Shown here: piece after piece, positions 2-63,338 of the stretch | Position numbering within the stretch: the stretch's first letter is position 1 | Layout: the number at the start of each line of letters is the position of its first letter | The notes under the pieces: generated by a model | Told to the model about the DNA's origin: nothing | The model's input: only the letters and a program-made list of their open reading frames with translations | Database searches by the model: none | NCBI RefSeq assembly: GCF_003688895.1 | Contig: NZ_REFV01000002.1 | Span: forward strand, 248,001 to 312,000 | Length of the DNA stretch: 64,000 nucleotides | Direction: 5' to 3' | Source: Dokdonia sinensis | Lineage (GTDB): Bacteria; Bacteroidota; Bacteroidia; Flavobacteriales; Flavobacteriaceae | Position numbers and translations under genes: made by a program

Positions 2-151
2 TGTTTCGGCATTTGCGAGTGGCAAGTATACGGTGCAGTAGCAACACTAAAAGTATATGGGCGTTTAAGCATTCTCTTTATAATGGCATTTTGTATAGTT
101 ACGCTTTCGCGAAAGCGTAAAAAAATCCCTACAAACTATAGACCACTCTAA
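2..151 (+). CDS. possible 3' end of a membrane protein gene (cut by window edge)
   Basis: The frame starting at base 2 is open to a TAA at 149-151. It reads as a short hydrophobic stretch (SILFIMAFCIVTL) followed by a basic tail (SRKRKK), which is how many inner-membrane proteins end. The repeated genomic palindrome at 99-120 lies inside it and encodes TLSRK. It would converge with and overlap the 3' end of the receptor gene on the other strand by 23 bases. Frame 1 is also open to base 120 but does not look protein-like. With only 49 codons visible no family can be named, and the segment may be non-coding. Confidence 0.3.
   Translation, partial: CFGICEWQVYGAVATLKVYGRLSILFIMAFCIVTLSRKRKKIPTNYRPL
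99..120. repeat. 22-bp genomic palindrome, perfect copy
   Basis: Perfect palindrome with half-site TTACGCTTTCG, followed by an A-run. It is the first of many copies in this window. It lies just beyond the stop of the minus-strand receptor gene and could also serve as a hairpin there. Confidence 0.9.
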
Positions 152-3829: not shown

Positions 3830-4720
3830 TTAGTTGATTTCCAGTCGGTAGCCCACCCCATGCACATTTGCAATTTTGATAGAGTCATCCTCTTTCAGCT
3901 TTTTGCGGAGTTTTGAAATGTAGGTGTCCAGACTTCGGCCTACAATGACGCCGTTGTCTTCCCAAACGCTTTTTGTAAGCTCCTCTCGCTTGATAATCTC
4001 ATTAGGTCTGGCGACAAATATGGCTAGGAGCTCGCACTCTTTGCGCGATAGGGGCAACTCTTTTGCTTCTTTTACAAGTTTGTTCTGTTCAGGATAAAAG
4101 TGAAAGCTTCCTAGTTTCTCATAATTTTCATTTGGTAAAGGCGATAGAGGTGTCCCTTTTTTGCTTTCGCGAAAACTTGTTCCGAATTCATTTCGGGAGC
4201 GGAAAACCACAAGTCCCAAAATTCCAAATGCAAATAACGTAATAGCGATCTTAGTGGTAGAAAGCGGTGCAGCCTCTTCTATAAAAAGGATTTCGATGGT
4301 ATGGCAAGCGTCCGGCACCTGCCGTCCGGAACAAGGTACGATCGTTTGCTCAATATCAATATTCATCTCGTAACTGTAGGATACCTCGCGATCTTCACAC
4401 CTGAGAACTTCGACAATATAATTTTCTGGTAATCCCGCTTTTGCAAAATTTTTATCAAGAATCGCAACAAGGCTATCAGGAAAAAACGTGAGTTCCTTCT
4501 CAAATGAGAGCTGGTATTTAAGAGGCTCCAGCTGAATGACAGGTAATATAATCGAAGTGCTGTCCTGGTTAGATAATAAAAGTTCATTCCCAACCTGACG
4601 TAAAGCAATTTTTACACGTTCGGGTAGTTTATTGTCAGGCTCTTCATGAAAGGGAACCATCCACGATATGGTAAGCAAGCAAATGATTGCTGTAATGATC
4701 TGTAGTTTTTTTGTGCTCAT
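3830..4720 (-). CDS. membrane-anchored winged-helix transcriptional regulator (ToxR-like topology)
   Basis: 296 residues. An N-terminal hydrophobic segment (about 8-24) precedes an extracytoplasmic domain of about 130 residues with two cysteine pairs. A second membrane helix at about 155-172 (IAITLFAFGILGLVVF) leads to a cytoplasmic C-terminal OmpR/PhoB-type winged helix at about 200-296. Visible DNA-binding features are LSRKECELLAIF, IIKREELTKSVW and the recognition-helix stretch SLDTYISKLRKKL, ending HGVGYRLEI. No receiver domain is present, so sensing probably happens outside the cytoplasm, as in ToxR/CadC, but with the DNA-binding domain at the opposite end. It is divergent from the YceI gene and sits upstream of the GLPGLI and receptor genes, its likely targets. 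The repeat palindrome, degenerate here, encodes FRES at 4162-4175. Confidence 0.75.
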   Translation of the reverse strand: MSTKKLQIITAIICLLTISWMVPFHEEPDNKLPERVKIALRQVGNELLLSNQDSTSIILPVIQLEPLKYQLSFEKELTFFPDSLVAILDKNFAKAGLPENYIVEVLRCEDREVSYSYEMNIDIEQTIVPCSGRQVPDACHTIEILFIEEAAPLSTTKIAITLFAFGILGLVVFRSRNEFGTSFRESKKGTPLSPLPNENYEKLGSFHFYPEQNKLVKEAKELPLSRKECELLAIFVARPNEIIKREELTKSVWEDNGVIVGRSLDTYISKLRKKLKEDDSIKIANVHGVGYRLEIN

Positions 4721-6950: not shown

Positions 6951-6972
6951 TTACGCTTTCGCGAAAGCGTAA
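6951..6972. repeat. 22-bp genomic palindrome, perfect copy
   Basis: Perfect copy, half-site TTACGCTTTCG, located 5 bp after the katG stop codon and immediately before the katG terminator. Confidence 0.9.
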
Positions 6973-6977
6973 AAAAT

Positions 6978-9239
<2,262 letters not shown>

Positions 9240-9322: not shown

Positions 9323-9344
9323 TTATGCTTTCGCGAAAGCGTAA
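9323..9344. repeat. 22-bp genomic palindrome, one-base variant
   Basis: TTATG instead of TTACG on the left half; the inner 14-mer at 9327-9340 is exact. It lies in the 242-bp gap between katG and the MarC-like gene, where I see nothing else apart from a possible weak TACCTTTG (-7 type) element at 9402-9409. Confidence 0.85.
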
Positions 9345-9436: not shown

Positions 9437-10018
9437 ATGTTTAATTTAAAAGAAATTCTTACAGCTACAATGGTTCTTTTTGCTGTGATCGATATTATAG
9501 GTAGTATTCCTATAATCCTAAAACTGCGCAAGAAAGCAGGTCACATCCAAAGCGAGAAAGCCGCACTCGTGGCGCTTGTGGTAATGATTCTTTTTGTGTT
9601 TGTAGGAGAGAGTATACTAGGTCTTATTGGGATTAATGTTTATGAGTTTGCTGTGGCGGGGTCGTTTATCCTTTTCTTTATAGCACTAGAGATGATTCTC
9701 GGGGTGAGTATTTTTAAAGATGATGAGACGTTGAGCAAGAAAACAGTATCTGTGTTCCCACTTGCTTTCCCGCTGGTTGCTGGTCCAGGAACGCTAACGT
9801 CGTTGCTAGCCTTGCGTGCCGAATATGAACTGATGAATATTCTTGTAGCTGTAGCTCTCAATATCCTGCTTGTTTATGTGGTTCTTAAGACATCTAAACA
9901 TATAGAGCGCTTTCTAGGAAAGAACGGGATTGCTGTGATACACAAAGTTTTTGGTGTAATTTTGCTAGCGATTGCAGTAAAGTTGTTTACGGCAAATATT
10001 CAGGAACTTTTTAGATAG
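9437..10018 (+). CDS. MarC family integral membrane protein
   Basis: 193 residues with six hydrophobic segments, matching the MarC/UPF0056 family. Characteristic features are AVIDIIGSIPIIL in the first helix, FFIALEMILGVSIF in the middle and PLAFPLVAGPGTLTSLLAL in the fourth segment. MarC was once linked to multiple antibiotic resistance but its transport role is not established. The gene is followed after 7 bp by a small membrane protein gene, so the two are probably an operon. Confidence 0.85.
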   Translation: MFNLKEILTATMVLFAVIDIIGSIPIILKLRKKAGHIQSEKAALVALVVMILFVFVGESILGLIGINVYEFAVAGSFILFFIALEMILGVSIFKDDETLSKKTVSVFPLAFPLVAGPGTLTSLLALRAEYELMNILVAVALNILLVYVVLKTSKHIERFLGKNGIAVIHKVFGVILLAIAVKLFTANIQELFR

Positions 10019-12578: not shown

Positions 12579-12598
12579 TACGCTTTCGCGAAAGCATA
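12579..12598. repeat. genomic palindrome, one-base variant
   Basis: TACGCTTTCG then CGAAAGCATA; the inner 14-mer at 12582-12595 is exact. It lies in the gap between the dCMP deaminase start and the HupE-like gene stop, two same-strand genes. Confidence 0.85.
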
Positions 12599-17707: not shown

Positions 17708-18187
17708 ATGGGTTTTACAATTAGAAAAGCACAACCAGCAGATATGCCCGCAGTTTTGGAGCTTATTACAGAGCTCGCTGTTTTTGAGAAAGAACCCGAT
17801 GCCGTAAAGATTAATGCACAAACGCTTGTAGACTCAGGTTTTGGAGAAAATCGGCTTTTTACTTGTTTTGTGGCAACGCTAGGTGATAAAATTGTGGGAA
17901 TGGCATTGGTATATTTTAGATTTTCTACTTGGGCAGGTAAATCTTTGCACCTAGAAGACCTTATTGTAAAACAGGAACATCGCGGTAAGGGAATAGGCAA
18001 AGGACTTTACGATCAAGTGATGTTGTATGGAGCACAGGAAGATGTAAAACGTGTAGAGTGGGTTGTTCTAGACTGGAATAAAGAGGCCATAGATTTTTAT
18101 GATCGTAGCGGTGCTCAGTTTCTCAAGGATTGGTATCTCGTGCAGATGGATGATGATCGTTTAAAAAAGTATGTAAAACAATTATAA
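17708..18187 (+). CDS. GNAT family N-acetyltransferase
   Basis: 159 residues with a complete GNAT fold. It starts GFTIRKAQPADMPAVLELI. The acetyl-CoA loop is VKQEHRGKGIGKGLYDQV (R/Q-x-x-G-x-G/A), followed by VLDWNKEAIDFYDRSGAQ near the end. It resembles diamine/thialysine acetyltransferases (SSAT type) in the LEDLIV and FLKDWYLVQMDDD segments, but the substrate is not certain. It is divergent from fbp and followed by a repeat palindrome. Confidence 0.85.
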   Translation: MGFTIRKAQPADMPAVLELITELAVFEKEPDAVKINAQTLVDSGFGENRLFTCFVATLGDKIVGMALVYFRFSTWAGKSLHLEDLIVKQEHRGKGIGKGLYDQVMLYGAQEDVKRVEWVVLDWNKEAIDFYDRSGAQFLKDWYLVQMDDDRLKKYVKQL

Positions 18188-18196
18188 GGTTTTAGT

Positions 18197-18218
18197 TTAC
18201 GCTTTCGCGAAAGCGTAA
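18197..18218. repeat. 22-bp genomic palindrome, perfect copy
   Basis: Perfect copy 10 bp after the acetyltransferase stop and 86 bp before the aspartokinase start. Confidence 0.9.
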
Positions 18219-22643: not shown

Positions 22644-22686
22644 AATAGTTTTTTAGATTAGAAACAGATTTTTATGTATTTAGAAT

Positions 22687-22702
22687 TTTCGCGAAAGCGT
22701 AA
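22687..22702. repeat. genomic palindrome, left half degraded
   Basis: TTTCGCGAAAGCGTAA is kept; the left half has lost ACGC. It lies 15 bp after the stop of the flavodoxin-like gene. Confidence 0.7.
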
Positions 22703-24067: not shown

Positions 24068-24490
24068 CTAACTTAGGTGCTCTGCAATAAAGTTTTTGCA
24101 ATATGCTTTTATTTCTTCTCTCGCTTTCGCGAAAGCGGCCTCCTTCTCATCTTCAGTTCCTTCTAGTTTTGAAGGGTCGTAAAAGTTGTGATGTAACCGT
24201 ACGGCATCTGGCGCAGCGATAAATGGACAGTTTTCATAAGCGTGGTCACATACGGTAATGATAAAATCCCAAGAAACGCCCTGATATTCATCTACGTGAT
24301 TTGAGGTATGACCTGTGATATCTATGCCATCCTTTTTCATCGTAGCAGCGGCTCCAGGATTAATACCATGCGTCTCAATTCCTGCAGAATAGACATTAAG
24401 CTTATCACCAGCAACTTTCTGTAAATACCCGTGTGCCATCTGGCTACGACAGCTGTTTCCTGTGCAAAGTACTAGTATGTTTCTTTTCAT
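24068..24490 (-). CDS. arsC: arsenate reductase, low-molecular-weight phosphatase type
   Basis: 140 residues. The phosphatase P-loop is LVLCTGNSCRSQMAHGYL (CxGNxCRS). Pairs of further Cys occur as VCDHAYENCP, matching the thioredoxin-linked ArsC family in which three Cys act in turn. The enzyme reduces arsenate to arsenite in the cytoplasm. It is the last of three co-directional arsenic-type genes. No arsenite exporter (ACR3/ArsB) or ArsR is adjacent. The genomic palindrome lies inside the gene (24122-24137) and encodes AFAKA. Confidence 0.9.
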   Translation of the reverse strand: MKRNILVLCTGNSCRSQMAHGYLQKVAGDKLNVYSAGIETHGINPGAAATMKKDGIDITGHTSNHVDEYQGVSWDFIITVCDHAYENCPFIAAPDAVRLHHNFYDPSKLEGTEDEKEAAFAKAREEIKAYCKNFIAEHLS

Positions 24491-25564: not shown

Positions 25565-26347
25565 TTAAGCTCCTTTAAAATTTGCCTTCCTTTTTTCAAG
25601 AAAAGCTGTTGTTCCTTCGGTAAAATCATCTGTCCCAAAGCAGTTTCCAAAAGCCTCGATTTCGGCTTCATAACCGTTTACACCGTCTTTAAACCCTGCA
25701 TTTACTGCGCCTATTGCCACAGCAATGGCTACTGGCGAATTACGCATAATTTTACTGGCAAGCTTTTCTGCAAGAGTAATTAGTTCATCTTGTGGTACTA
25801 GATGATTTATAAGCCCATAATCTAATGCTACGGTTGCGTCTATCATTCCTGCGGTCATTATCATTTCCATTGCGCGGCCTTTTCCTACCAGTTGTGGTAG
25901 GCGTTGCGTTCCTCCATATCCTGGGATAACCCCAAGTGACACTTCTGGTAGTCCCATACGTGCATTGTCGCTGGCAATTCTAAAATGAGCTGCCATCGCT
26001 AGTTCTAAGCCACCTCCTAACGCAAAACCGTTTATAGCTGCAATTACCGGAGTTCCTAGATTTTCGACAAAATCAAAAAGTTGTTCTTGCCCTATTCTAG
26101 CAAGCGCGGCACCTTCGGCTACTTCAAAGTGGGCAAACTCAGAGATATCTGCGCCCGCCACAAAAGCTTTTTCGCCTGAACCTGTGATGATAATCACTCT
26201 AGTGTCTGTATCCGAGTCTGCTTTTGCAAAAGCGTTATGCAACTCATCAATCGTTTCTCTATTTAAGGCATTGAGTTTAGAGGGACGGTTTATGGTAATG
26301 GTCGTGATACCGTTTGCCGTTTCGGATAGGATGTTGTTGTATGACAT
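25565..26347 (-). CDS. enoyl-CoA hydratase/isomerase (crotonase) family protein
   Basis: 260 residues. The oxyanion hole residues lie in GEKAFVAGADISEF and INGFALGGGLELAMA. Both catalytic Glu positions are present (GGGLELAMAAHF and GLPEVSLGVIPGYGG), so hydratase activity is likely. The protein would act in fatty-acid beta-oxidation or a related degradative route, on enoyl-CoA thioesters. It follows the NtrY-like kinase gene on the same strand across a 123-bp gap that holds a split palindrome with a 24-bp insert. Confidence 0.9.
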   Translation of the reverse strand: MSYNNILSETANGITTITINRPSKLNALNRETIDELHNAFAKADSDTDTRVIIITGSGEKAFVAGADISEFAHFEVAEGAALARIGQEQLFDFVENLGTPVIAAINGFALGGGLELAMAAHFRIASDNARMGLPEVSLGVIPGYGGTQRLPQLVGKGRAMEMIMTAGMIDATVALDYGLINHLVPQDELITLAEKLASKIMRNSPVAIAVAIGAVNAGFKDGVNGYEAEIEAFGNCFGTDDFTEGTTAFLEKRKANFKGA

Positions 26348-28547: not shown

Positions 28548-31500
28548 TTATTCCTCTCCCTCCACAAACAAATAATCCAGCTTCAAACTATTAAACTCAT
28601 CATTAAACTTTGCCACCTCGCCGTCCAGCATGTTATCAAAAGCTTCTAACTGTGTATTGATTTCGGCGGTTAACTGATTTTTTACAGCGACATCTTGGTC
28701 TGTAGGGCCAAAATCCCCCATCCCTACGAGACTGTTTAAATGTCCTAATTTGTTGGTAAGCCTGATTGGAAAATTGAGTGGATCTTGACCTGAGCGATTT
28801 TTGGTTTGGTAAAGTTCTTTTTCAATCTTGCCAAATTCTTCCTGCATCGTTTCTGCTTTTTTACGTAAATCTGTCGTACGACTATCGTCCTTATATTGGG
28901 TGGTAAAAGCTTTAAGTTGACTATTAATTTTTCTGATCTTTTTAATACTTTGGTGTGCGCGGTTTACAGATTTATTGACATCTGCAATAAAGTCAAATTG
29001 CTTTTGCATATCTGCAATGGTAGCTTCGGCATTAGGATTTGCGAGTATTTCAAAAGATTCGGTTTGTACTTCCCCATTAATATTTAAAGAGACATTGTAC
29101 TTGCCTGGTGTGGCTTTAGGACCATCAAGATCTGCCCACCATAAAATCATTTTTTTGAGTTCCTCTGCTCCTTTGATTCTAGTATCCCAAGCAAACATAT
29201 TTCCTCCTTTTTTTACTTCGAGAGAATCCTCTTTTTTCTTTGCAGCAGTACTAAAAGATCTTAATGTGTCTCCACTTTTGCGCGTGTAAGTCAAGCTTAT
29301 GGTGTCTTTTTTCTTGTCGTAGTTAGGGATGTTAAAATAAGTGATTACTCCTGCAGGATGATTTGTTCCTTCGGTCAGGCTTGCTTTTTTACTACTAGAG
29401 CCTCCCATTCGGTAGGTGGGTTTAGGCTTAAAGAGTTTGTTTGTTTTTGCTTTCGCGAAAGCGGACTGATGCAACATCCCTAAGTCATCTATAATCCAAA
29501 GACTACGTCCCTGAGTAGCTACAATTAAATTATCATCCTTTATGGTAAGGTCTGTAATGGGAACGATAGGTAAATTAAGTTGAAATGAACGCCAATTTTT
29601 GCCGTCGTCAAAGCTTATGTACATACCCGTTTCTGTTCCAGCATAGAGTAGCCCCTTTTGTTTAGGGTCTTCACGTAAAACACGCGTAAAATGTTCTGCA
29701 GGAATACCGGTTGTAATCTTTTTCCAAGATTTTCCGTAATCGGTCGTTTTATATAAATAGGGCGTAAAATCACCTAATTTATATCGTGTTCCTGCTACAT
29801 AGGCCGTTCCTTCATCAAAGGCACTCGGCTCCACGCTGTTTATCATCATATTTGCAGGCATACCCTTAGGTGTTACGTTTTCCCAGCTCGTTCCACCATT
29901 TTGAGTAATATGTACGAGACCGTCATCACTTCCTACCCAAAGTAATCCTTCTTTAAGAGGTGACTCTGCTGCTGCAAAAATGGTACAGTAATACTCTACC
30001 GAGGTATTGTCTTGTGTAATGGGTCCACCCGAAGATTTCATTTTTTCGGGGTCATTTGTTGTTAGGTCGCCACTTATGACCTTCCAACTCTGTCCCTCAT
30101 TCTCACTCACGTGTACGCTCTGAGAAAAAGTGTACAGACGGTCAGGGTTATGCTTTGAAAAAATAATAGGAAAATTCCATTGGAATCGGTATTTCATATC
30201 CTCTACACCGTGCCCCATAGGGTTGTCTGGCCAGACAGAAACCGAGCGTACCGTGTTTTTATCGTGATTTACCCGGGTTAAAAAACCGTCGTAGCTCCCT
30301 CCGTAAACGATCTCATTATTTTCTGGATCTACAGCAATATGTGCAGATTCTCCTCCTGCGGTACTTTCCCAATCATCTTCGCTTATACTTCTGTTCTCCG
30401 TGCGGTGGGGAATCCTGATCGTGCTATTATCCTGCTGCGCGACATAAATTCTATAAGGAAATGCATTATCTGTGGTCACTCGATAAAATTGTGCTGTGGG
30501 CTGGTTCATATAAGTACTCCAAGAACGACCACCATCATAAGAAACCTGTGCTCCACCATCATCACCTATAATCATACGCTTAGGATCTTCTGGAGCAATC
30601 CATAGATCGTGATGGTCACCGTGAGGAGCATTGTAGGTGCTAAAGGTTTTTCCGCCATCTGTAGATTTGTGATAGCGCACATTGAGCACGTAGACTGTAC
30701 TTTCATCCTTAGTATCTGCATATAGCCTTGTGTAGTACCAAGCACGCTGGCGTAATTTACGCTCATCGTTTATTTTTTTCCAAGTATTTCCTGCATCTGT
30801 AGAGGTGTAAAGACCACCTTCTTTTTGATTCTCAACCATAGCGTACAAACGATTACTGTTTGCTGGGGATACGGTAATGCCCATAATACCTAGAGTGCCT
30901 TCTGCAAAGCCTTCTTTTTTAGAAATCTCTTTCCACGTTTCTCCGCTATCTGTACTCTTCCATAGTGCAGAGCCTTCTCCTCCAGAACTTAAACTATAAG
31001 GTGTACGTCGTGCGTTCCAAGTGGTTGCATATAAAACTCTGTGATTATTTGGGTCTATAATTAAATCTACGACTCCACTATTTTCGTTAGAAAATAGAGT
31101 TCTTCTCCAAGTTTTACCTCCATCTGTACTCTTGTAAACTCCACGCTCCTGTGTAGGTTTATATATATTTCCTAAAACACCTGCATATACGATGTCAGAA
31201 TTTGTAGGATGTACTCGTATTCTAGGGATGTGACGGCTTTCTTTTAAGCCTGATTCAAACCACGTTTTTCCAGCATCTTCAGATTTCCAAATACCATATC
31301 CTGATGAAACATTACCGCGTAGGGTTTTTTCTCCGCCTCCTACGTAAATGACATTTGGGTCACTTTTTGAGACCTCGACCGCGCCTATACTTCCACCAAA
31401 AAATCCGTCAGAGATATTTTCCCATTCCTTACCTCCATTTATCGTACGCCACACGCCACCGCCCGTACTTCCCATATAAAACAAGTCTGGTTGTCCAGGT

Positions 31501-31655
31501 ACCCCAGTCACGGCTGCACTACGTCCACCTCTAAAAGGACCGATGAGACGGTATTGGAGTGCTTCATAATTAGACTCATCTGGGGTTTGTGCAATACTTT
31601 CTAAAGAGATTCCTGACCATATAGCGAGGAATAAAAGGAGGAAATTGATTTTCAT
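28548..31655 (-). CDS. secreted VPS10/BNR-type beta-propeller protein
   Basis: About 1035 residues with a signal peptide (MKINFLLLFLAIWSGISL). Many BNR/sortilin-type repeats of the form SxDGGKTW occur (STDGGKTW, SEDAGKTW, SYDGGRSW, TTDYGKSW), forming one or two propellers over about residues 30-730. The C-terminal third is unrelated to the repeats and includes a coiled, charged region (about 900-1000). Proteins of this build are common in Bacteroidetes and annotated as glycosyl hydrolases or sortilin-like, without firm enzymatic evidence. I chose the ATG at 31655 since the earlier one (31694) gives a poor signal start. A palindrome copy in the gene (29449-29462) encodes AFAKA. Confidence 0.8.
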   Translation of the reverse strand: MKINFLLLFLAIWSGISLESIAQTPDESNYEALQYRLIGPFRGGRSAAVTGVPGQPDLFYMGSTGGGVWRTINGGKEWENISDGFFGGSIGAVEVSKSDPNVIYVGGGEKTLRGNVSSGYGIWKSEDAGKTWFESGLKESRHIPRIRVHPTNSDIVYAGVLGNIYKPTQERGVYKSTDGGKTWRRTLFSNENSGVVDLIIDPNNHRVLYATTWNARRTPYSLSSGGEGSALWKSTDSGETWKEISKKEGFAEGTLGIMGITVSPANSNRLYAMVENQKEGGLYTSTDAGNTWKKINDERKLRQRAWYYTRLYADTKDESTVYVLNVRYHKSTDGGKTFSTYNAPHGDHHDLWIAPEDPKRMIIGDDGGAQVSYDGGRSWSTYMNQPTAQFYRVTTDNAFPYRIYVAQQDNSTIRIPHRTENRSISEDDWESTAGGESAHIAVDPENNEIVYGGSYDGFLTRVNHDKNTVRSVSVWPDNPMGHGVEDMKYRFQWNFPIIFSKHNPDRLYTFSQSVHVSENEGQSWKVISGDLTTNDPEKMKSSGGPITQDNTSVEYYCTIFAAAESPLKEGLLWVGSDDGLVHITQNGGTSWENVTPKGMPANMMINSVEPSAFDEGTAYVAGTRYKLGDFTPYLYKTTDYGKSWKKITTGIPAEHFTRVLREDPKQKGLLYAGTETGMYISFDDGKNWRSFQLNLPIVPITDLTIKDDNLIVATQGRSLWIIDDLGMLHQSAFAKAKTNKLFKPKPTYRMGGSSSKKASLTEGTNHPAGVITYFNIPNYDKKKDTISLTYTRKSGDTLRSFSTAAKKKEDSLEVKKGGNMFAWDTRIKGAEELKKMILWWADLDGPKATPGKYNVSLNINGEVQTESFEILANPNAEATIADMQKQFDFIADVNKSVNRAHQSIKKIRKINSQLKAFTTQYKDDSRTTDLRKKAETMQEEFGKIEKELYQTKNRSGQDPLNFPIRLTNKLGHLNSLVGMGDFGPTDQDVAVKNQLTAEINTQLEAFDNMLDGEVAKFNDEFNSLKLDYLFVEGEE

Positions 31656-31727
31656 TTTTTTGTTGGTTTTTATCTTGAGAAGAAAATTAAGCAATTCTCT
31701 ACTAGGACGGAAGTGGGTTCAGGGTTT

Positions 31728-35860: not shown

Positions 35861-36562
35861 ATGATTAAGCTCACAGACCAAGATTACAAAGATGGACAAG
35901 TGCTTCTCTTTGACAAACCACTGGAATGGACCTCGTTCCAGCTCGTGAATAAAGTACGCTGGCTCATCCGTAAAAATCTGAATATCAAAAAGATAAAAGT
36001 AGGTCACGCGGGAACGCTGGATCCACTAGCGACTGGATTGATGATTATTTGCACAGGAAAGTTTACTAAGCGCATCAGTGAATTTATGGGTCAGGAAAAG
36101 GAATATACTGGGACTATAGTTTTGGGCGCAACGACGCCCAGTTACGATCTGGAGTCTGAAGTAGACAAAACATTTCCTACGGAGCATATTACTGAGGAGG
36201 CTATTTACGCTTTCGCGAAAGCGTACCAAGGAAAAATACAACAACGTCCACCCATATTTTCTGCCCTTAAGAAAGATGGAAAACGCCTATACGAATTTGC
36301 AAGAGCAGGTGAGGAAGTAGAAATTCCAAAACGGGAAATCCACATTTCGTCTTTTGAAATTACTCGCATCTCAATGCCAGAGGTAGACTTTAAGGTGCGC
36401 TGTAGTAAAGGCACCTACATCCGTTCTCTAGCTTATGATTTTGGTCTAGGACTAGAGAGTGGGGCACACCTTACTGAACTACGCAGAACCAAAATAGGTG
36501 ACTTTTCCGTAGATACAGCACAGACTATCGAAGGCTTTGAGGCAAGTTTTGGCTATAGTTAG
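35861..36562 (+). CDS. truB: tRNA pseudouridine(55) synthase TruB
   Basis: 233 residues. The catalytic Asp lies in VGHAGTLDPLATGLMIICTG. KPLEWTSFQLVNKVR near the start and CSKGTYIRSLAYDFG in the C-terminal part are typical TruB features. It makes pseudouridine at position 55 of the T-arm of elongator tRNAs. A perfect 20-base core of the genomic palindrome (36206-36225) lies inside the gene and encodes YAFAKAY in the middle of a helix. It follows the lipoprotein gene by six bases. Confidence 0.93.
   Translation: MIKLTDQDYKDGQVLLFDKPLEWTSFQLVNKVRWLIRKNLNIKKIKVGHAGTLDPLATGLMIICTGKFTKRISEFMGQEKEYTGTIVLGATTPSYDLESEVDKTFPTEHITEEAIYAFAKAYQGKIQQRPPIFSALKKDGKRLYEFARAGEEVEIPKREIHISSFEITRISMPEVDFKVRCSKGTYIRSLAYDFGLGLESGAHLTELRRTKIGDFSVDTAQTIEGFEASFGYS
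36206..36225. repeat. genomic palindrome inside truB
   Basis: Perfect 20-bp copy (TACGCTTTCG plus complement) read as YAFAKAY. Shows that the repeat is tolerated inside an essential-type RNA-modification gene. Confidence 0.9.
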
Positions 36563-38710: not shown

Positions 38711-39379
38711 CTACATTGAAGGGTATTCTAAATATTTTAAAAATTCTTCTCTAGGAATTTCGGCAGCGCCTAGGCTGGAGAGATGGTCCGTGTACATCTG
38801 GCAATCTATGAGATGGTAATTTTGTTTTGTAAGCTTTCGCGAAAGCGTAATAAACCCCACTTTACTTGCATTGCTCACAGTAGTAAACATACTTTCCCCA
38901 CAGAAAACTCCTTTGTCTTTTAAGTCTACACCATATAATCCTCCTACTAATTCATCTTCATACCAGACTTCTACAGAAATGGCGTGTCCTAACTCGTGCA
39001 GATTGAGATAGGCCTTAACTATCGAATTTGTAATCCAAGTACCGTTCTGACCATCTCGTTTTATACGTTTACAGGCAAGAATGACTTCAAGAAAATTCTG
39101 GTTATAAGTTACCTTAAAGGTGTTGTCTTTCAAGATCTTGCGCATAGATTTTGAAACATAGACATCCTGAGGTTTTACGACCATCCTAGGGTCTGGTGTC
39201 CACCACAGTATGGGTTGCCCTTCATTGTACCACGGGAAGATGCCAGAGTTATACGCAAGTAGTAGCCAGTCCTTATCAAGACTGCCACCTACCATAAGTA
39301 ACCCTTCCTCATCTGCTAGATGATGGTCTGGGAACCAAGGGCCATTATCCCACGGATGATTTTCTGGAAGTTCTAACAC
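38711..39379 (-). CDS. aat: leucyl/phenylalanyl-tRNA-protein transferase
   Basis: 222 residues, standard for Aat. It contains the conserved start of the catalytic domain (DEEGLLMVGGSL, YNSGIFPWYNEGQPILWWTPDPR) and EVWYEDELVGGLYGVDLKDKGVFCGESMFT. The enzyme adds Leu or Phe to proteins with N-terminal Arg or Lys, marking them for ClpAP/ClpS degradation (N-end rule). A palindrome copy (38833-38846) lies in the coding region and encodes LSRK, a different frame from the truB copy. Confidence 0.94.
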   Translation of the reverse strand: MLELPENHPWDNGPWFPDHHLADEEGLLMVGGSLDKDWLLLAYNSGIFPWYNEGQPILWWTPDPRMVVKPQDVYVSKSMRKILKDNTFKVTYNQNFLEVILACKRIKRDGQNGTWITNSIVKAYLNLHELGHAISVEVWYEDELVGGLYGVDLKDKGVFCGESMFTTVSNASKVGFITLSRKLTKQNYHLIDCQMYTDHLSSLGAAEIPREEFLKYLEYPSM

Positions 39380-41272: not shown

Positions 41273-41294
41273 TTACGCTTTTGCGAAAGCGGAA
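41273..41294. repeat. genomic palindrome, variant copy
   Basis: TTACGCTTTTG then CGAAAGCGGAA. It lies between the flavin reductase gene and the divergent kinase gene. Confidence 0.7.
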
Positions 41295-42533: not shown

Positions 42534-43108
42534 CTAGAGTCAAAAACATACAGGAAGAGATACACTACGAGGGATTTGCGTCCATCCGAGAGGTGACCTT
42601 TGATTATCAAGATACTCAGGGAGATTGGCACCATATAAAGCGGGAAGTGTACGATCGCGGTAATGGAGCAAGTGCGTTGCTTTATAATCGTGAGCGCAAC
42701 ACGGTATTGCTTACAGAACAATTCAGAATGCCCTCTTTTCTTAACGGAAATCCCTCTGGAATGCTCATAGAGGCCTGTGCTGGAAAACAGGACGAGACCG
42801 ACCCTAAAAAAACAATACTTCGTGAGATAGAAGAGGAGTTAGGTTACAAACTGCCCGCTGTGGAGAAGGTAATGGAGGTTTATATGACCCCTGGAGGAAG
42901 CACGGAGATCATCCATTTATATCTGGGTGAATATTCAGATGAGTGCAAGGTAAATGATGGAGGTGGGTTAGATTGTGAGCAAGAAGATATAAGGGTTGTT
43001 GAGTATGCTTTTGCAAAAGCGTTATCACTCATAAAAACTGGAGAAATTAAAGACGCCAAAACAGTCATTCTATTACAGCATCTGCAACTCTCAGGTATTA
43101 TGGATTAG
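42530..43108 (+). CDS. Nudix hydrolase (NudK/ADP-ribose pyrophosphatase-like)
   Basis: 192 residues. The Nudix box is spread over CAGKQDETDPKKTILREIEEELGYKL (GxnREIxEELGY), with the upstream MLIEACAGK stretch that in NudK-type enzymes reads ELPAG. It hydrolyses nucleoside diphosphates linked to a sugar or other group. The start is the GTG at 42530, overlapping the kinase stop. A degenerate palindrome copy at about 43013-43032 encodes YAFAKAL. Confidence 0.88.
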   Translation: MTRVKNIQEEIHYEGFASIREVTFDYQDTQGDWHHIKREVYDRGNGASALLYNRERNTVLLTEQFRMPSFLNGNPSGMLIEACAGKQDETDPKKTILREIEEELGYKLPAVEKVMEVYMTPGGSTEIIHLYLGEYSDECKVNDGGGLDCEQEDIRVVEYAFAKALSLIKTGEIKDAKTVILLQHLQLSGIMD

Positions 43109-45532: not shown

Positions 45533-47947
45533 TTAAAACGTTAAGGTTGCGCCTGCAAGAAAATTAATCCCCGCTTGTGGATAGTATCCTGCACCCTCAA
45601 CAGTTGTAATTTCTCCAGGCACAGTAAAATCATCGTCAAATGTAAAGAAGTACCCATTAGAAACATATTTCTCATCAAAAATATTGTTTACCAGCACATT
45701 AAACACCACGGATTTGAATACTGAGAGATTTTTAAGCTCGTACGAAACGTTTAAGTCGTTAATAAAAAACGAATCTAACAAAGAGTTCTCACAATCAATA
45801 TTACCCAGATATTGTTCTCCCACATATTTTGACAAGAAGCTTACGCGAAAATTCTCGAAAGGTCTATACTCGATCGTATTTCCTATAACAATCTCTGGAG
45901 AGTAGGCAATGTTAGTATTCCCTAGATTAAGAAGCACCCCATCACGACGAAAGAGGAAATCCCTGTTTTTATTTGTGCTTAAAGCCACATTAGGCATCAC
46001 CGAGAGTTTGTTTGTCACCGCAACGGCCGCGTCTATTTCTATTCCTGCGCGATAACTATCACTATTTACTCGTATTGGGGCACCCACATTATCTAGCTCT
46101 CCTGTCGGGATAAGCTGGTCTGAGTATGCCATATAATAGCCATTTACATTAAGCTTTACTTTTGCTGTGTTAAATCTCCATCCTAGCTCAAAATCATTCA
46201 GTTTTTCTGCTTGCGGGTCGCCGTTTTCAAAATCCGTACGGCTAGGCTCACGGTTTGCCCTAGCGTATGAGGCATAAAACTGGTTACTCTCGTTCAGTTT
46301 GTAACTCAGTCCGGCCTTTGGGTTAAAGAAGTTGTAGTTTTCATCTACGATAAATTCTTCGATGTCCGAGTTTATTCCATCTGTTTTGTAGGTGATAAAT
46401 CTCCCTTGCAAGTCTAGATATGCGCTCCATTGTGGGGAGATGCGGAAGTCCGCTTTCGCGAAAGCGGAAAATTCATCTTTCTCCCCCGTCCCAAAGTAAT
46501 AGTTGTCACCCGTCTCGCTATCGCTGGCAAAACGTGCCCAAATCACTTCGCCAAAATGATCTCCGTCATACTTACTCGCATATAATCCGGAAGTGACATC
46601 CCAAGAACTGTCCTTGTAATTTACACTAGCACTAGCTACGTAAAAATCGTTATCCAGCCAGCGACGTCTTATAATATCTGTGGTTGTAATCGTCTCGCCT
46701 CCAATGGTCACATCATCCAGCCCGTAAAAAGCCAGCGAACTTTCATTGCCAAAATTCACATTCTGCTCGAACCAATCGTCCACATATTCTTCAAAGAAGC
46801 CACGACCATAAGTGTAGTTTAAACTCACCTGTGAGCTCCAGTTATTGTCATAGCGCTCATTCCAATGCAGTTGATAGTGATCTTGCTTATAATCATCTAC
46901 TTGATTGTTGTGAAAACCAGTAAGATTGCCCTCATTGTCATATTGTGCTCCCGCAGGGTTGAAGGTAGGATTGTTATCTACCGTTGCTTGGTCTACCCCA
47001 AACCAAGATTGATATGTCACCTCAGACCCGGCAAAGTTGATTGCCTTTATGAGAGTGTTGTCATCTTTATATGCCGCTTGAAGAAAATAAGACTTTAAAT
47101 CTGAGCTTGCACGGTCTATGTAGCCGTCAGATTTTATTTGGGAGATCCTTCCCGAAATTTCTACGTGCTCATTGAGCAGTCCAGTGCTGAATTTTACATT
47201 GTGACGTCGCGTGTTAAAGGAACCGAAGGAGTTGTTTATTTCGCCGTAAGGCTCCTCAGAAACAGCATCCGTAAGAATATTCAAACTTGCCCCAAAAGCT
47301 GCCGAACCATTTGTACTCGACCCCACACCTCGCTGTAATTGTAAACTCTCCACAGAGGAGGTAAAATCCTGAAGGTTTACAAAAAAGGATGTGAGACTTT
47401 CTGAGTCATTATAAGGTATACCGTTTATTGTCACATTAATCCCTTGATTCCCCGTGCCGCGCACTCTAAAACCGGTGTAGCCTATCCCTGCTCCCGCGTC
47501 AGACGTGGTGACGACTCCTGGCAGGAAGTTGAGCTGGGTAGCGATGTCCTGACCTAGATTGCGCTTTTCTAAATCTTCAGCATCTAGGTTAGAGTGTGTG
47601 ATGGGCGAGTCTGCATCTACACGGATGGCGCTTACTAGGACTTCGTCTAGACTTTCGGTTTTCTGAAACAACTGAATGTTTAGAATTTGGTCATTTTCGA
47701 CGTTTATCTCGTGTTGCTCACTCGTATAGCTCATATAGTTGAACTCAATGATATGAGTCCCTTTTTCGAGACTTAAAGTGTATTTTCCCTCTAAATCTGT
47801 CGTGGTGCCGTTTGTAGTGCCTTTTTGAGTTACGTTAGCTCCTGGTAGCGGCCCCTCTGCATCTGTCACTGTTCCAGATACCGTAAATGTCTGTCCAAAA
47901 CTGATTGCTGTAAAAAGCAAAACTGCAAAAAATAGGATTTTTTTCAT
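45533..47947 (-). CDS. TonB-dependent receptor, TPP-riboswitch controlled (likely thiamine or precursor uptake)
   Basis: About 804 residues. The signal peptide is KKILFFAVLLFTAISFGQ. A carboxypeptidase-like domain follows at about 20-95, then the plug (LDEVLVSAIRVDADSPIT, IGYTGFRVRGTGNQGINVTING) and a large barrel ending AGATLTF. The leader carries a TPP aptamer, so the substrate is probably thiamine or a thiamine precursor; this matches the TPP-regulated omr1-type receptors of Bacteroidetes. The ATG at 47947 is preferred to 47983. A palindrome copy (46449-46468) inside the gene encodes AFAKA. Confidence 0.88.
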   Translation of the reverse strand: MKKILFFAVLLFTAISFGQTFTVSGTVTDAEGPLPGANVTQKGTTNGTTTDLEGKYTLSLEKGTHIIEFNYMSYTSEQHEINVENDQILNIQLFQKTESLDEVLVSAIRVDADSPITHSNLDAEDLEKRNLGQDIATQLNFLPGVVTTSDAGAGIGYTGFRVRGTGNQGINVTINGIPYNDSESLTSFFVNLQDFTSSVESLQLQRGVGSSTNGSAAFGASLNILTDAVSEEPYGEINNSFGSFNTRRHNVKFSTGLLNEHVEISGRISQIKSDGYIDRASSDLKSYFLQAAYKDDNTLIKAINFAGSEVTYQSWFGVDQATVDNNPTFNPAGAQYDNEGNLTGFHNNQVDDYKQDHYQLHWNERYDNNWSSQVSLNYTYGRGFFEEYVDDWFEQNVNFGNESSLAFYGLDDVTIGGETITTTDIIRRRWLDNDFYVASASVNYKDSSWDVTSGLYASKYDGDHFGEVIWARFASDSETGDNYYFGTGEKDEFSAFAKADFRISPQWSAYLDLQGRFITYKTDGINSDIEEFIVDENYNFFNPKAGLSYKLNESNQFYASYARANREPSRTDFENGDPQAEKLNDFELGWRFNTAKVKLNVNGYYMAYSDQLIPTGELDNVGAPIRVNSDSYRAGIEIDAAVAVTNKLSVMPNVALSTNKNRDFLFRRDGVLLNLGNTNIAYSPEIVIGNTIEYRPFENFRVSFLSKYVGEQYLGNIDCENSLLDSFFINDLNVSYELKNLSVFKSVVFNVLVNNIFDEKYVSNGYFFTFDDDFTVPGEITTVEGAGYYPQAGINFLAGATLTF

Positions 47948-48120
47948 CCGTAAAAATTTTTTAGTTACGAATACAAAGGGCAAATATTCTACGAGTGTTA
48001 TTAGTAATACCTGTCTGCCGGTGGCAAACGCATTGAAGAGGTTTCAACTTGTCTAGGCAAGTCGCTTCTCAAGAGAAAGGACGTCATTAGTTCTCGACTA
48101 CGCTCGAACGGACCTTCATT

Positions 48121-52035: not shown

Positions 52036-52051
52036 CGCTTTCGCGAAAGCG
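52036..52051. repeat. genomic palindrome copy
   Basis: CGCTTTCG plus complement, exact 14-mer at 52037-52050, between the TM2 terminator and the Lrp gene stop. Confidence 0.85.
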
Positions 52052-52643: not shown

Positions 52644-52665
52644 TTACGCTTTCGCGAAAGCGTAA
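52644..52665. repeat. 22-bp genomic palindrome, perfect copy
   Basis: Perfect copy in the intergenic region between the Lrp gene and the homogentisate dioxygenase gene, where promoters of both are expected. Confidence 0.9.
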
Positions 52666-54028: not shown

Positions 54029-54043
54029 CCGCTTTCGCGAAAA
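54029..54043. repeat. genomic palindrome, half-degraded
   Basis: CCGCTTTCGCGAAAA inside the left part of element 2. Confidence 0.6.
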
Positions 54044-54060
54044 ACTAACCGTTTACAACT

Positions 54061-57550: not shown

Positions 57551-57570
57551 TACGCTTTCGCGAAAGCGTA
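57551..57570. repeat. genomic palindrome, 20-bp copy
   Basis: Perfect TACGCTTTCG plus complement, in the 220-bp gap before the LytS-type kinase gene. Confidence 0.9.
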
Positions 57571-62405: not shown

Positions 62406-63338
62406 ATGAAGATAGAGCCTGATATAGAAAGACTCATCGACGCGCTCGATGATAAATACGAGAAAATAGACCAAGATCTAGATGATCATCTTGAGGGTCT
62501 ATTACAAAGCAAGCCCATTACCTATTGGGATTACATCCATACAGATGCTTTGCTCAATTTACAATTACCCCGCACAAGCTTTCCAGATGAGAACGTATTC
62601 ATAATGTACCATCAGGTTACAGAGCTTTACTTTAAAATGGTGCTTTGGGAAATTGAGCAAGTATGTCACCATCCTAATCTTACAGCAACCTTTTTCAGCT
62701 CTCGATTGGGTAGGATAAGTCGTTATTTTGATATGCTTACATCTTCCTTTACCATCATGAAAGATGGAATGGATCTCGAGCAGTACATGAAGTTTAGAAA
62801 AACGCTCACTCCTGCTAGCGGTTTTCAGAGTGCGCAATATCGTAAGATAGAATTTGCAAGCACCGACTTGATAAATTTAATAGATGCACGCTTTCGCGAA
62901 AGCATAGATCGCAATACTCCCTACGAACACGCGTTAGAACATCTGTACTGGCAAGCGGCGGGAAAGGACTATAATACAGGTAAAAAGTCTTATTTGCTTA
63001 CTGCTTTTGAAGAGAAATATAAAAACGACTTCATTGCCTTTACAAAAGAATATAATACCATAAATTTGTACGCCAAATTTAAGAGCCTACCCAAAAGTGT
63101 TCAACAAGACCAAAAGTTGCGTGATGCAATGCGTCACTACGATTACACGGTAAATGTCACTTGGGTAATGTCACATTATAATACGGCAAATCACTATCTT
63201 AATAACGGAAAGACACCTGTAGAGGCAACAGGAGGTAGTGAGTGGACAAAGTATATGCACCCTAAATACCAGCGTAGGATTTTCTTTCCCGACGTATGGA
63301 CGGCTCAAGAGCTGGAAAACTGGGGACAAAATGTTTAA
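62406..63338 (+). CDS. kynA: tryptophan 2,3-dioxygenase family protein
   Basis: 310 residues. The family segments LLNLQLPRTSFPDENVFIMYHQVTELYFKMVLWEIEQ, FQSAQYRKIEF and YHxY-type HYDYTVNVTWVMSHYNTANHYL are present. The enzyme would open the indole ring of tryptophan with a haem. A palindrome copy (62890-62903) lies in the gene and encodes FRES. Its stop overlaps the ATG of the metallopeptidase-like gene (TAATG), as in other Flavobacteria. Confidence 0.85.
   Translation: MKIEPDIERLIDALDDKYEKIDQDLDDHLEGLLQSKPITYWDYIHTDALLNLQLPRTSFPDENVFIMYHQVTELYFKMVLWEIEQVCHHPNLTATFFSSRLGRISRYFDMLTSSFTIMKDGMDLEQYMKFRKTLTPASGFQSAQYRKIEFASTDLINLIDARFRESIDRNTPYEHALEHLYWQAAGKDYNTGKKSYLLTAFEEKYKNDFIAFTKEYNTINLYAKFKSLPKSVQQDQKLRDAMRHYDYTVNVTWVMSHYNTANHYLNNGKTPVEATGGSEWTKYMHPKYQRRIFFPDVWTAQELENWGQNV

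Follow-up and report, generated by a model that had tools for sequence, protein, structure and literature searches.

A dispersed palindrome of Dokdonia and allied genera as a putative self-DNA tag resembling DNA-uptake sequences

The palindrome and its sites in the 64-kb window

The window analysed here, a 64-kb stretch of the genome of the marine bacterium Dokdonia sinensis, carries 14 exact copies of the palindromic 14-mer GCTTTCGCGAAAGC, each at the position claimed in a preliminary description of this DNA, and the four complete 22-bp palindromes which it had placed at positions 99, 6951, 18197 and 52644 proved to be real. Eight of the 14 exact copies are intergenic; that description had put eight in or next to intergenic DNA. 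The first complete palindrome, TTACGCTTTCGCGAAAGCGTAA (99..120, with its core 14-mer at 103-116), lies 9 bp past the stop of the minus-strand gene 129-2843, the second (6951..6972) just past the stop of katG (6978-9194, minus strand), the third (18197..18218) in intergenic DNA 10 bp past a stop at 18187, and the fourth (52644..52665) in the divergent gap between the genes of an Lrp-type regulator and a homogentisate dioxygenase. The other intergenic copies are found in the divergent gap between katG and gene 9437-10018 (9327..9340), at 12582..12595, between convergent genes (52037..52050), where the orthologous gap of genomes G003, G004 and G006 also holds a site, and in a further divergent gap (57554..57567). 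Within genes, the site is translated as AFAKA at 24123..24136 (gene 24068-24490), as SAFAKA at 29449..29462 (gene 28548-31694), as YAFAKAY at 36209..36222 in a truB-like gene (35861-36562), as LSRKL at 38833..38846 in an aat-like gene (38711-39379) and as RFRES at 62890..62903 (gene 62406-63338). The remaining genic copy (46452..46465), in a TonB-receptor gene (45533-47983), recurs without mismatch in five other Dokdonia species, whose homologues are 69-74% identical.

The four variants previously reported are likewise genuine, two of them with one mismatch (GCTTTCGCGAAAAC at 4163..4176 and GCTTTTGCGAAAGC at 41277..41290) and two with two mismatches (ATTTTCGCGAAAGC at 22685..22698, a form recurring across the genus, and GCTTTCGCGAAAAA at 54031..54044). 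Two more were recovered, both of the symmetrical form GCTTTTGCAAAAGC and both in coding DNA (26220..26233 and 43007..43020). Within two mismatches, the window holds 20 matches, against 0.15 expected per window from dinucleotide shuffles. No Rfam match was obtained in the window. A different repeat of ~30 bp, ATTTATCCTGAGTTTATCTCAC..AAAGCGT, occurs there in four plus-strand copies (26432, 32852, 55012 and 55036), and its core does not recur in the remaining 400 kb sampled of the same genome.

Beyond whole-genome counts, our analyses rely on genome samples of about 11%. In 400 kb of the D. sinensis genome we found 90 exact sites, together with 19, 26 and 35 sites bearing one, two and three mismatches, respectively. 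The core is usually lengthened to (T)TAC...GTA(A), and each flank, read 5' to 3' toward the core, is C-poor and T/G-rich over ~20 nt, with a T-run in the outer 5' flank and an A-run in the outer 3' flank. This flank composition is alike for genic and intergenic sites, and in Dokdonia and the site-rich genus g10. Outside the full site, the nested cores CGCG, TCGCGA and TTCGCGAA occur at or below expectation (observed/expected 0.3-0.9); recognition is all-or-none and bears on the long site. A mobile element was also considered and rejected: there is no unit beyond the motif, and the copies share only the short core and the flank composition, where insertion of REP- or MITE-like units would bring conserved flanks or target duplications. 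The way in which a site was gained within a gene and the distribution of copies in recipient genomes, both described below, speak against it as well.

Abundance, spacing and taxonomic range

The preliminary description had called for counts in the full genome and in related genomes. The whole D. sinensis genome (3.65 Mb, 43 contigs) contains 857 copies of GCTTTCGCGAAAGC and none of the reversed control, and 369-905 copies were counted in each of the 18 Dokdonia genomes searched (18/18); the two outcomes that would have spoken against that description, a chance-level count and a repeat confined to this stretch, are thereby ruled out. The whole-genome counts and their control also eliminate a local artefact. 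Among 399 genomes of the family, covering 203 genera, only three genera are site-rich, namely Dokdonia itself (g1), g10 (578-664 copies), which is probably Nonlabens, and g164 (408 copies). The remaining 200 genera sampled hold 0-19 copies, and genomes from other families of the order hold 0 or 1. The closest named loci, at 95% protein identity, are from Dokdonia, and of the 80 named loci compared across Flavobacteriia, only those of Dokdonia and Nonlabens are dense in the 14-mer. A search of the same 80 loci for tags of another sequence (11-mers with at least 4 copies per 21 kb) revealed none, the 21 kb available per genus giving this comparison weak power. In a 12-protein tree of uncertain rooting, Dokdonia and g164 group together, the site-poor genera g69 and g71 neighbour them and g10 stands apart, so that either loss or two origins are needed. 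Stretches of g164 (L273, L277, L352 and L371) display few exact copies and many with one to three mismatches, a weaker site population, which would suit a system in decay or of recent origin in that genus.

Intergenic calls cover 16-20% of bases and hold about 45% of the sites. Site density there is proportional to the number of bases in tandem and divergent gaps and lowest in convergent gaps, and there is no gene-orientation bias. Genic sites read mostly AFAKA, otherwise LSRK or RFRES. Spacing and strand bias relative to origin and terminus had also been proposed as checks. Sites lie about 4.3 kb apart, and spacing is even, with coefficients of variation of 0.65 and 0.60 versus 1.02 in placement-matched simulations that kept the coding/intergenic share. 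Gaps under 600 bp are absent (0 vs 13-15 expected), gaps under 1200 bp are rare (3 vs 23-26) and gaps over 10 kb number 3-4 versus 9-10 expected. On a closed chromosome, the slightly asymmetric 20-mer form is uniformly distributed (KS p 0.77) and free of strand bias, with 76 vs 75 copies on the two strands. Among the longest site-free stretches of the D. sinensis genome is a 13-kb segment (C1:262008-275079) with a predicted curli-type (CsgA/CsgG-like) gene cluster.

Conservation, turnover and transfer of sites

Comparison of related genomes revealed that the sites are under extreme constraint. For G003 and G004, whose aligned sample is 88.5% identical, the sites agree fully in 91 of 93 aligned cases versus 31% of random 14-mers, and between G003 and G006, 83 of 93 are exact versus 45%. 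Substitutions within sites amount to 0.4% (G003-G004) and 0.8% (G003-G006), against 11.4% and 8.2% overall, and four-fold-site divergence is 1.3% inside sites versus 28.7% overall. Four-fold sites located 8-50 bp off the core are also slowed (17% vs 29%). In G003-G004 the protein divergence over the same 8-50 bp is above average, indicating that the sites occupy permissive segments. When the three genomes are taken together, 81 of 98 aligned sites are exact in all three, 13 have been lost in one lineage, mostly by a single substitution, and 4 are exact in one species only; redundancy of the lost sites with a near neighbour was not significant in this set. Site gain within a gene occurred by in-frame substitution with no indel, and the gained site differs from its homologues at too many bases for point mutation. 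Divergence and unaligned sequence increase with distance from sites. We considered a valley of synonymous divergence around the sites as proof of recombination and rejected it: a trend is present at the kilobase scale, and the within-gene slope does not differ from zero.

In accessory blocks, 2 sites were counted against an expectation of 6.4 (P 0.047), and none is present within two mismatches in P12024S and P12024L, lytic phages whose host is a Nonlabens (Persicivirga). Several phage-like contigs do carry sites. Two phage contigs (L172:6842 and L176:2313) share 95% identity up to a palindrome and are unrelated beyond it, the junction lying at the site. Among intergenic ends of homology blocks in the G003, G004 and G006 samples (L278-L337), 9 lie within 15 bp of a site vs 1.8 expected. 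This excess and the phage-pair junction bear on recombination in a suggestive manner only; the excess may be no more than an effect of short homologies shared at these points, and it draws on genome pairs that are not independent of one another.

Outside the site-rich genera, genomes with intermediate counts are rare and their copies can be clustered in a few blocks. In G085, all 16 copies lie within one 78-kb stretch, and several genera share a pair of sites separated by 933 bp. The two island stretches that we read encode predicted copper-efflux, phage-like and Wadjet-like genes. In G085, one such region (L274-L275, G085:C3:50000-89999) carries a Wadjet-like set alongside genes for copper efflux, and also a phage-like module that includes a packaging ATPase of the A32 type; its genic sites read AFAKA, and the genus is otherwise palindrome-free. 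In these recipient genomes the copies have not spread beyond the islands, which suggests that the system moves with the DNA and does not spread from it. The tag also marks DNA transferred from this clade to other genera.

Candidate functions and comparison with known systems

The preliminary description had left four readings side by side without choosing among them. The uptake tag emerges as the best fit, the palindrome may instead bind a structural protein, and a HIP1-like element and a transcription terminator are disfavoured. We thus propose, with about an even chance of being right, that the palindrome is a putative tag of self DNA in Dokdonia and allied genera, comparable to a DNA-uptake sequence. 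It shares with such sequences the over-representation of the exact motif with a graded surplus of single-mismatch forms, conservation far above the surroundings, permissive core positions, even spacing and the presence of transformation genes, together with a weak depletion in new DNA (P 0.047). The surplus drops steeply as mismatches accumulate, a pattern that has been described for uptake sequences (PMC1939737). We liken the palindrome to this class and do not place it within it, since the functional test that defines the class is missing and since uptake tags of palindromic form would be a novelty. A narrower proposal, which we consider plausible at somewhat short of an even chance, is that of a ~44-bp perfectly palindromic tag by which Bacteroidota would recognise self DNA and import it independently of pili, via an outer-membrane barrel; this would be a second, independently evolved kind of sequence-specific uptake, symmetric so that the orientation of the fragment would be irrelevant.

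Under the uptake-tag reading, a component of the transformation machinery, located at the surface or in the periplasm, would recognise the full symmetric site in double-stranded DNA, the recognised unit being the core plus ~20 nt of C-poor flank to either side. Tagged fragments from relatives would be taken up preferentially and then recombined into the chromosome. This recombination would repair damaged sites and seed new ones at permissive places, and it would favour about one site per incoming fragment, leading to an even spacing of ~4 kb. What we observed are the abundance, exactness, extended form, even spacing, constraint and permissive placement of the sites, their scarcity in accessory DNA and in two lytic phages, and homologues of Flavobacteriia uptake genes; DNA uptake by these cells, its dependence on the site and the identity of the binding protein are inferred. 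ComEC was found in all 16 site-rich genomes tested (16/16), and also in site-poor genera. The same applies to the adjacent beta-barrel and DUF5689 genes of Dokdonia, homologues of the Riemerella uptake pair. Natural transformation is established in Riemerella, where ComEC, the beta-barrel and the DUF5689 protein are essential in one species (PMC8459023), and in Riemerella columbina a preference for own DNA has been measured (PMC7965970), with no motif established. No report of transformation in Dokdonia or Nonlabens was found in the open-access literature searched. The DUF5689 protein (L360:4676-6124, equivalent to C12:328676-330124 of the D. sinensis genome) is only 38-46% identical between Dokdonia species, the adjacent uptake-type barrel (C12:325847-328645) 65-71% and a neighbouring gene product 79-86%; judging from these identities, the DUF5689 protein appears to be a fast-evolving surface protein. 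As a putative receptor it shows essentially no signature, with a single alignment column specific to site-rich genomes, and the comEC neighbourhood contains no clade-specific gene. Counting against the uptake-tag reading are the lack of palindromes among the uptake sequences known to us, the literature searched without a case of transformation in Dokdonia or Nonlabens, the within-gene slope of synonymous divergence, the rapid divergence and missing signature of the putative receptor, the occurrence of these genes in site-poor genera, and the sites on some phage-like contigs and on an island in another genus.

If true, the uptake-tag reading would make this the first such tag found in Bacteroidota, bring an independent example to the unsettled debate on molecular drive versus selection for kin exchange, and offer a handle on DNA recognition in Flavobacteriia. 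The 14-mer appears in none of the open-access papers searched, subscription papers and preprints being outside this scope, so that an earlier description is possible; searches of the open-access literature for parts of the 14-mer, or for palindromes and repeats in these genera, gave nothing relevant.

The main rival has the sites anchor a dimeric protein that organises the chromosome, a hitherto unknown nucleoid or domain factor of this lineage that needs a site every few kilobases. We regard it as unlikely, though deserving serious consideration. The perfect symmetry suits a dimeric binder, and the long extended motif, the regularity of spacing at both ends of the distribution, the uniform placement round the chromosome without gene-orientation bias and the long persistence of individual sites in place are all in its favour. 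Against it, there are no relaxed or graded sites, and one site per 4 kb requires ~12 bits where the core alone holds 28, a surplus seldom seen in binding sites under selection. Moreover, such a factor does not specifically predict the scarcity in accessory DNA and lytic phages, and no candidate protein was found. If true, it would reveal a chromosome-wide organiser with unusually strict sites.

A site directing recombination or repair, either Chi-like, stopping or redirecting a nuclease, or an exchange signal of mobile elements providing a shared recombination joint, appears distinctly improbable. It would account for the excess of homology ends near sites and for the phage contigs in which homology starts at the site, and the density resembles that of Chi in E. 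coli, but the breakpoint excess is open to the explanation by short homology given above, and the 14-bp symmetric core without strand preference departs from Chi. We assign very little probability to a HIP1-like element produced by a DNA methyltransferase and methyl-directed mismatch repair. Its appeal lies in the abundance and even distribution of a palindrome, as for HIP1 in cyanobacteria (PMC4390886), but the inner cores show no enrichment away from the full site, which is much longer than a methyltransferase target and includes the flanks. A self mark that shields DNA from a host defence nuclease is comparably improbable: host genomes are tagged throughout, and temperate-type phage contigs and an acquired island bear sites, but the two site-free lytic phages still grow on their Nonlabens host and no defence gene was found linked to the site. 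Finally, a transcription terminator or RNA hairpin can practically be dismissed, for although a 9-bp stem with a 4-nt loop can form and one of the five sites in the first 20 kb was called terminator-like, density is lowest between convergent genes, about half of the sites lie within genes, the C-poor flanks are T-rich 5' and A-rich 3' on both strands and hence supply no T-run after the stem, and the flank halves do not covary beyond composition (1296 matches vs 1339 +/- 30), leaving no sign of a selected hairpin.

To our knowledge, uptake sequences are established in two bacterial families only, both with type IV pili; we know of no palindromic one among them (USS, DUS), and of no type IV pilus uptake system in Bacteroidota. 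Among other dispersed motifs, Chi has a similar density and is over-represented in backbone DNA; it is short, asymmetric and strand-biased, whereas the Dokdonia core is symmetric. Noc, SlmA, parS and MatP offer palindromic sites of chromosome-bound dimers, but these sites number in the tens, occupy limited regions and are unrelated in sequence to the ~860 uniformly placed Dokdonia sites. HIP1 and the alternate HIPs of cyanobacteria are also abundant dispersed palindromes, both genic and intergenic (PMC4390886). HIP1, however, is an 8-bp motif found once per kilobase and containing methyltransferase targets, while the Dokdonia site spans at least 14 bp with no enrichment of its inner cores. The Pasteurellaceae USS resembles the Dokdonia site in its core with extended AT-rich flanks, its fairly even spacing and its graded mismatch surplus (PMC7811141, PMC1939737). 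It differs in being asymmetric, with a 9-bp core and sites ~1 kb apart, against a symmetric site every ~4.3 kb. The DUS is a non-palindromic 10-12-mer, recognised in Neisseria by a pilin, and in this it differs from the perfect 14-22-bp palindrome of Dokdonia. In Neisseria, the DUS is 97% identical against a background of 85%, with 71% of sites exact in all genomes; losses occur by single mismatches and some new sites are too divergent for point mutation; sites occupy permissive core positions and are absent from new genes, and their spacing is tied to conversion length (PMC2397512). Both systems comprise hundreds of exact copies, and the Dokdonia palindrome shares every point of this profile except the tie between spacing and conversion length, the depletion in new DNA being shared weakly.
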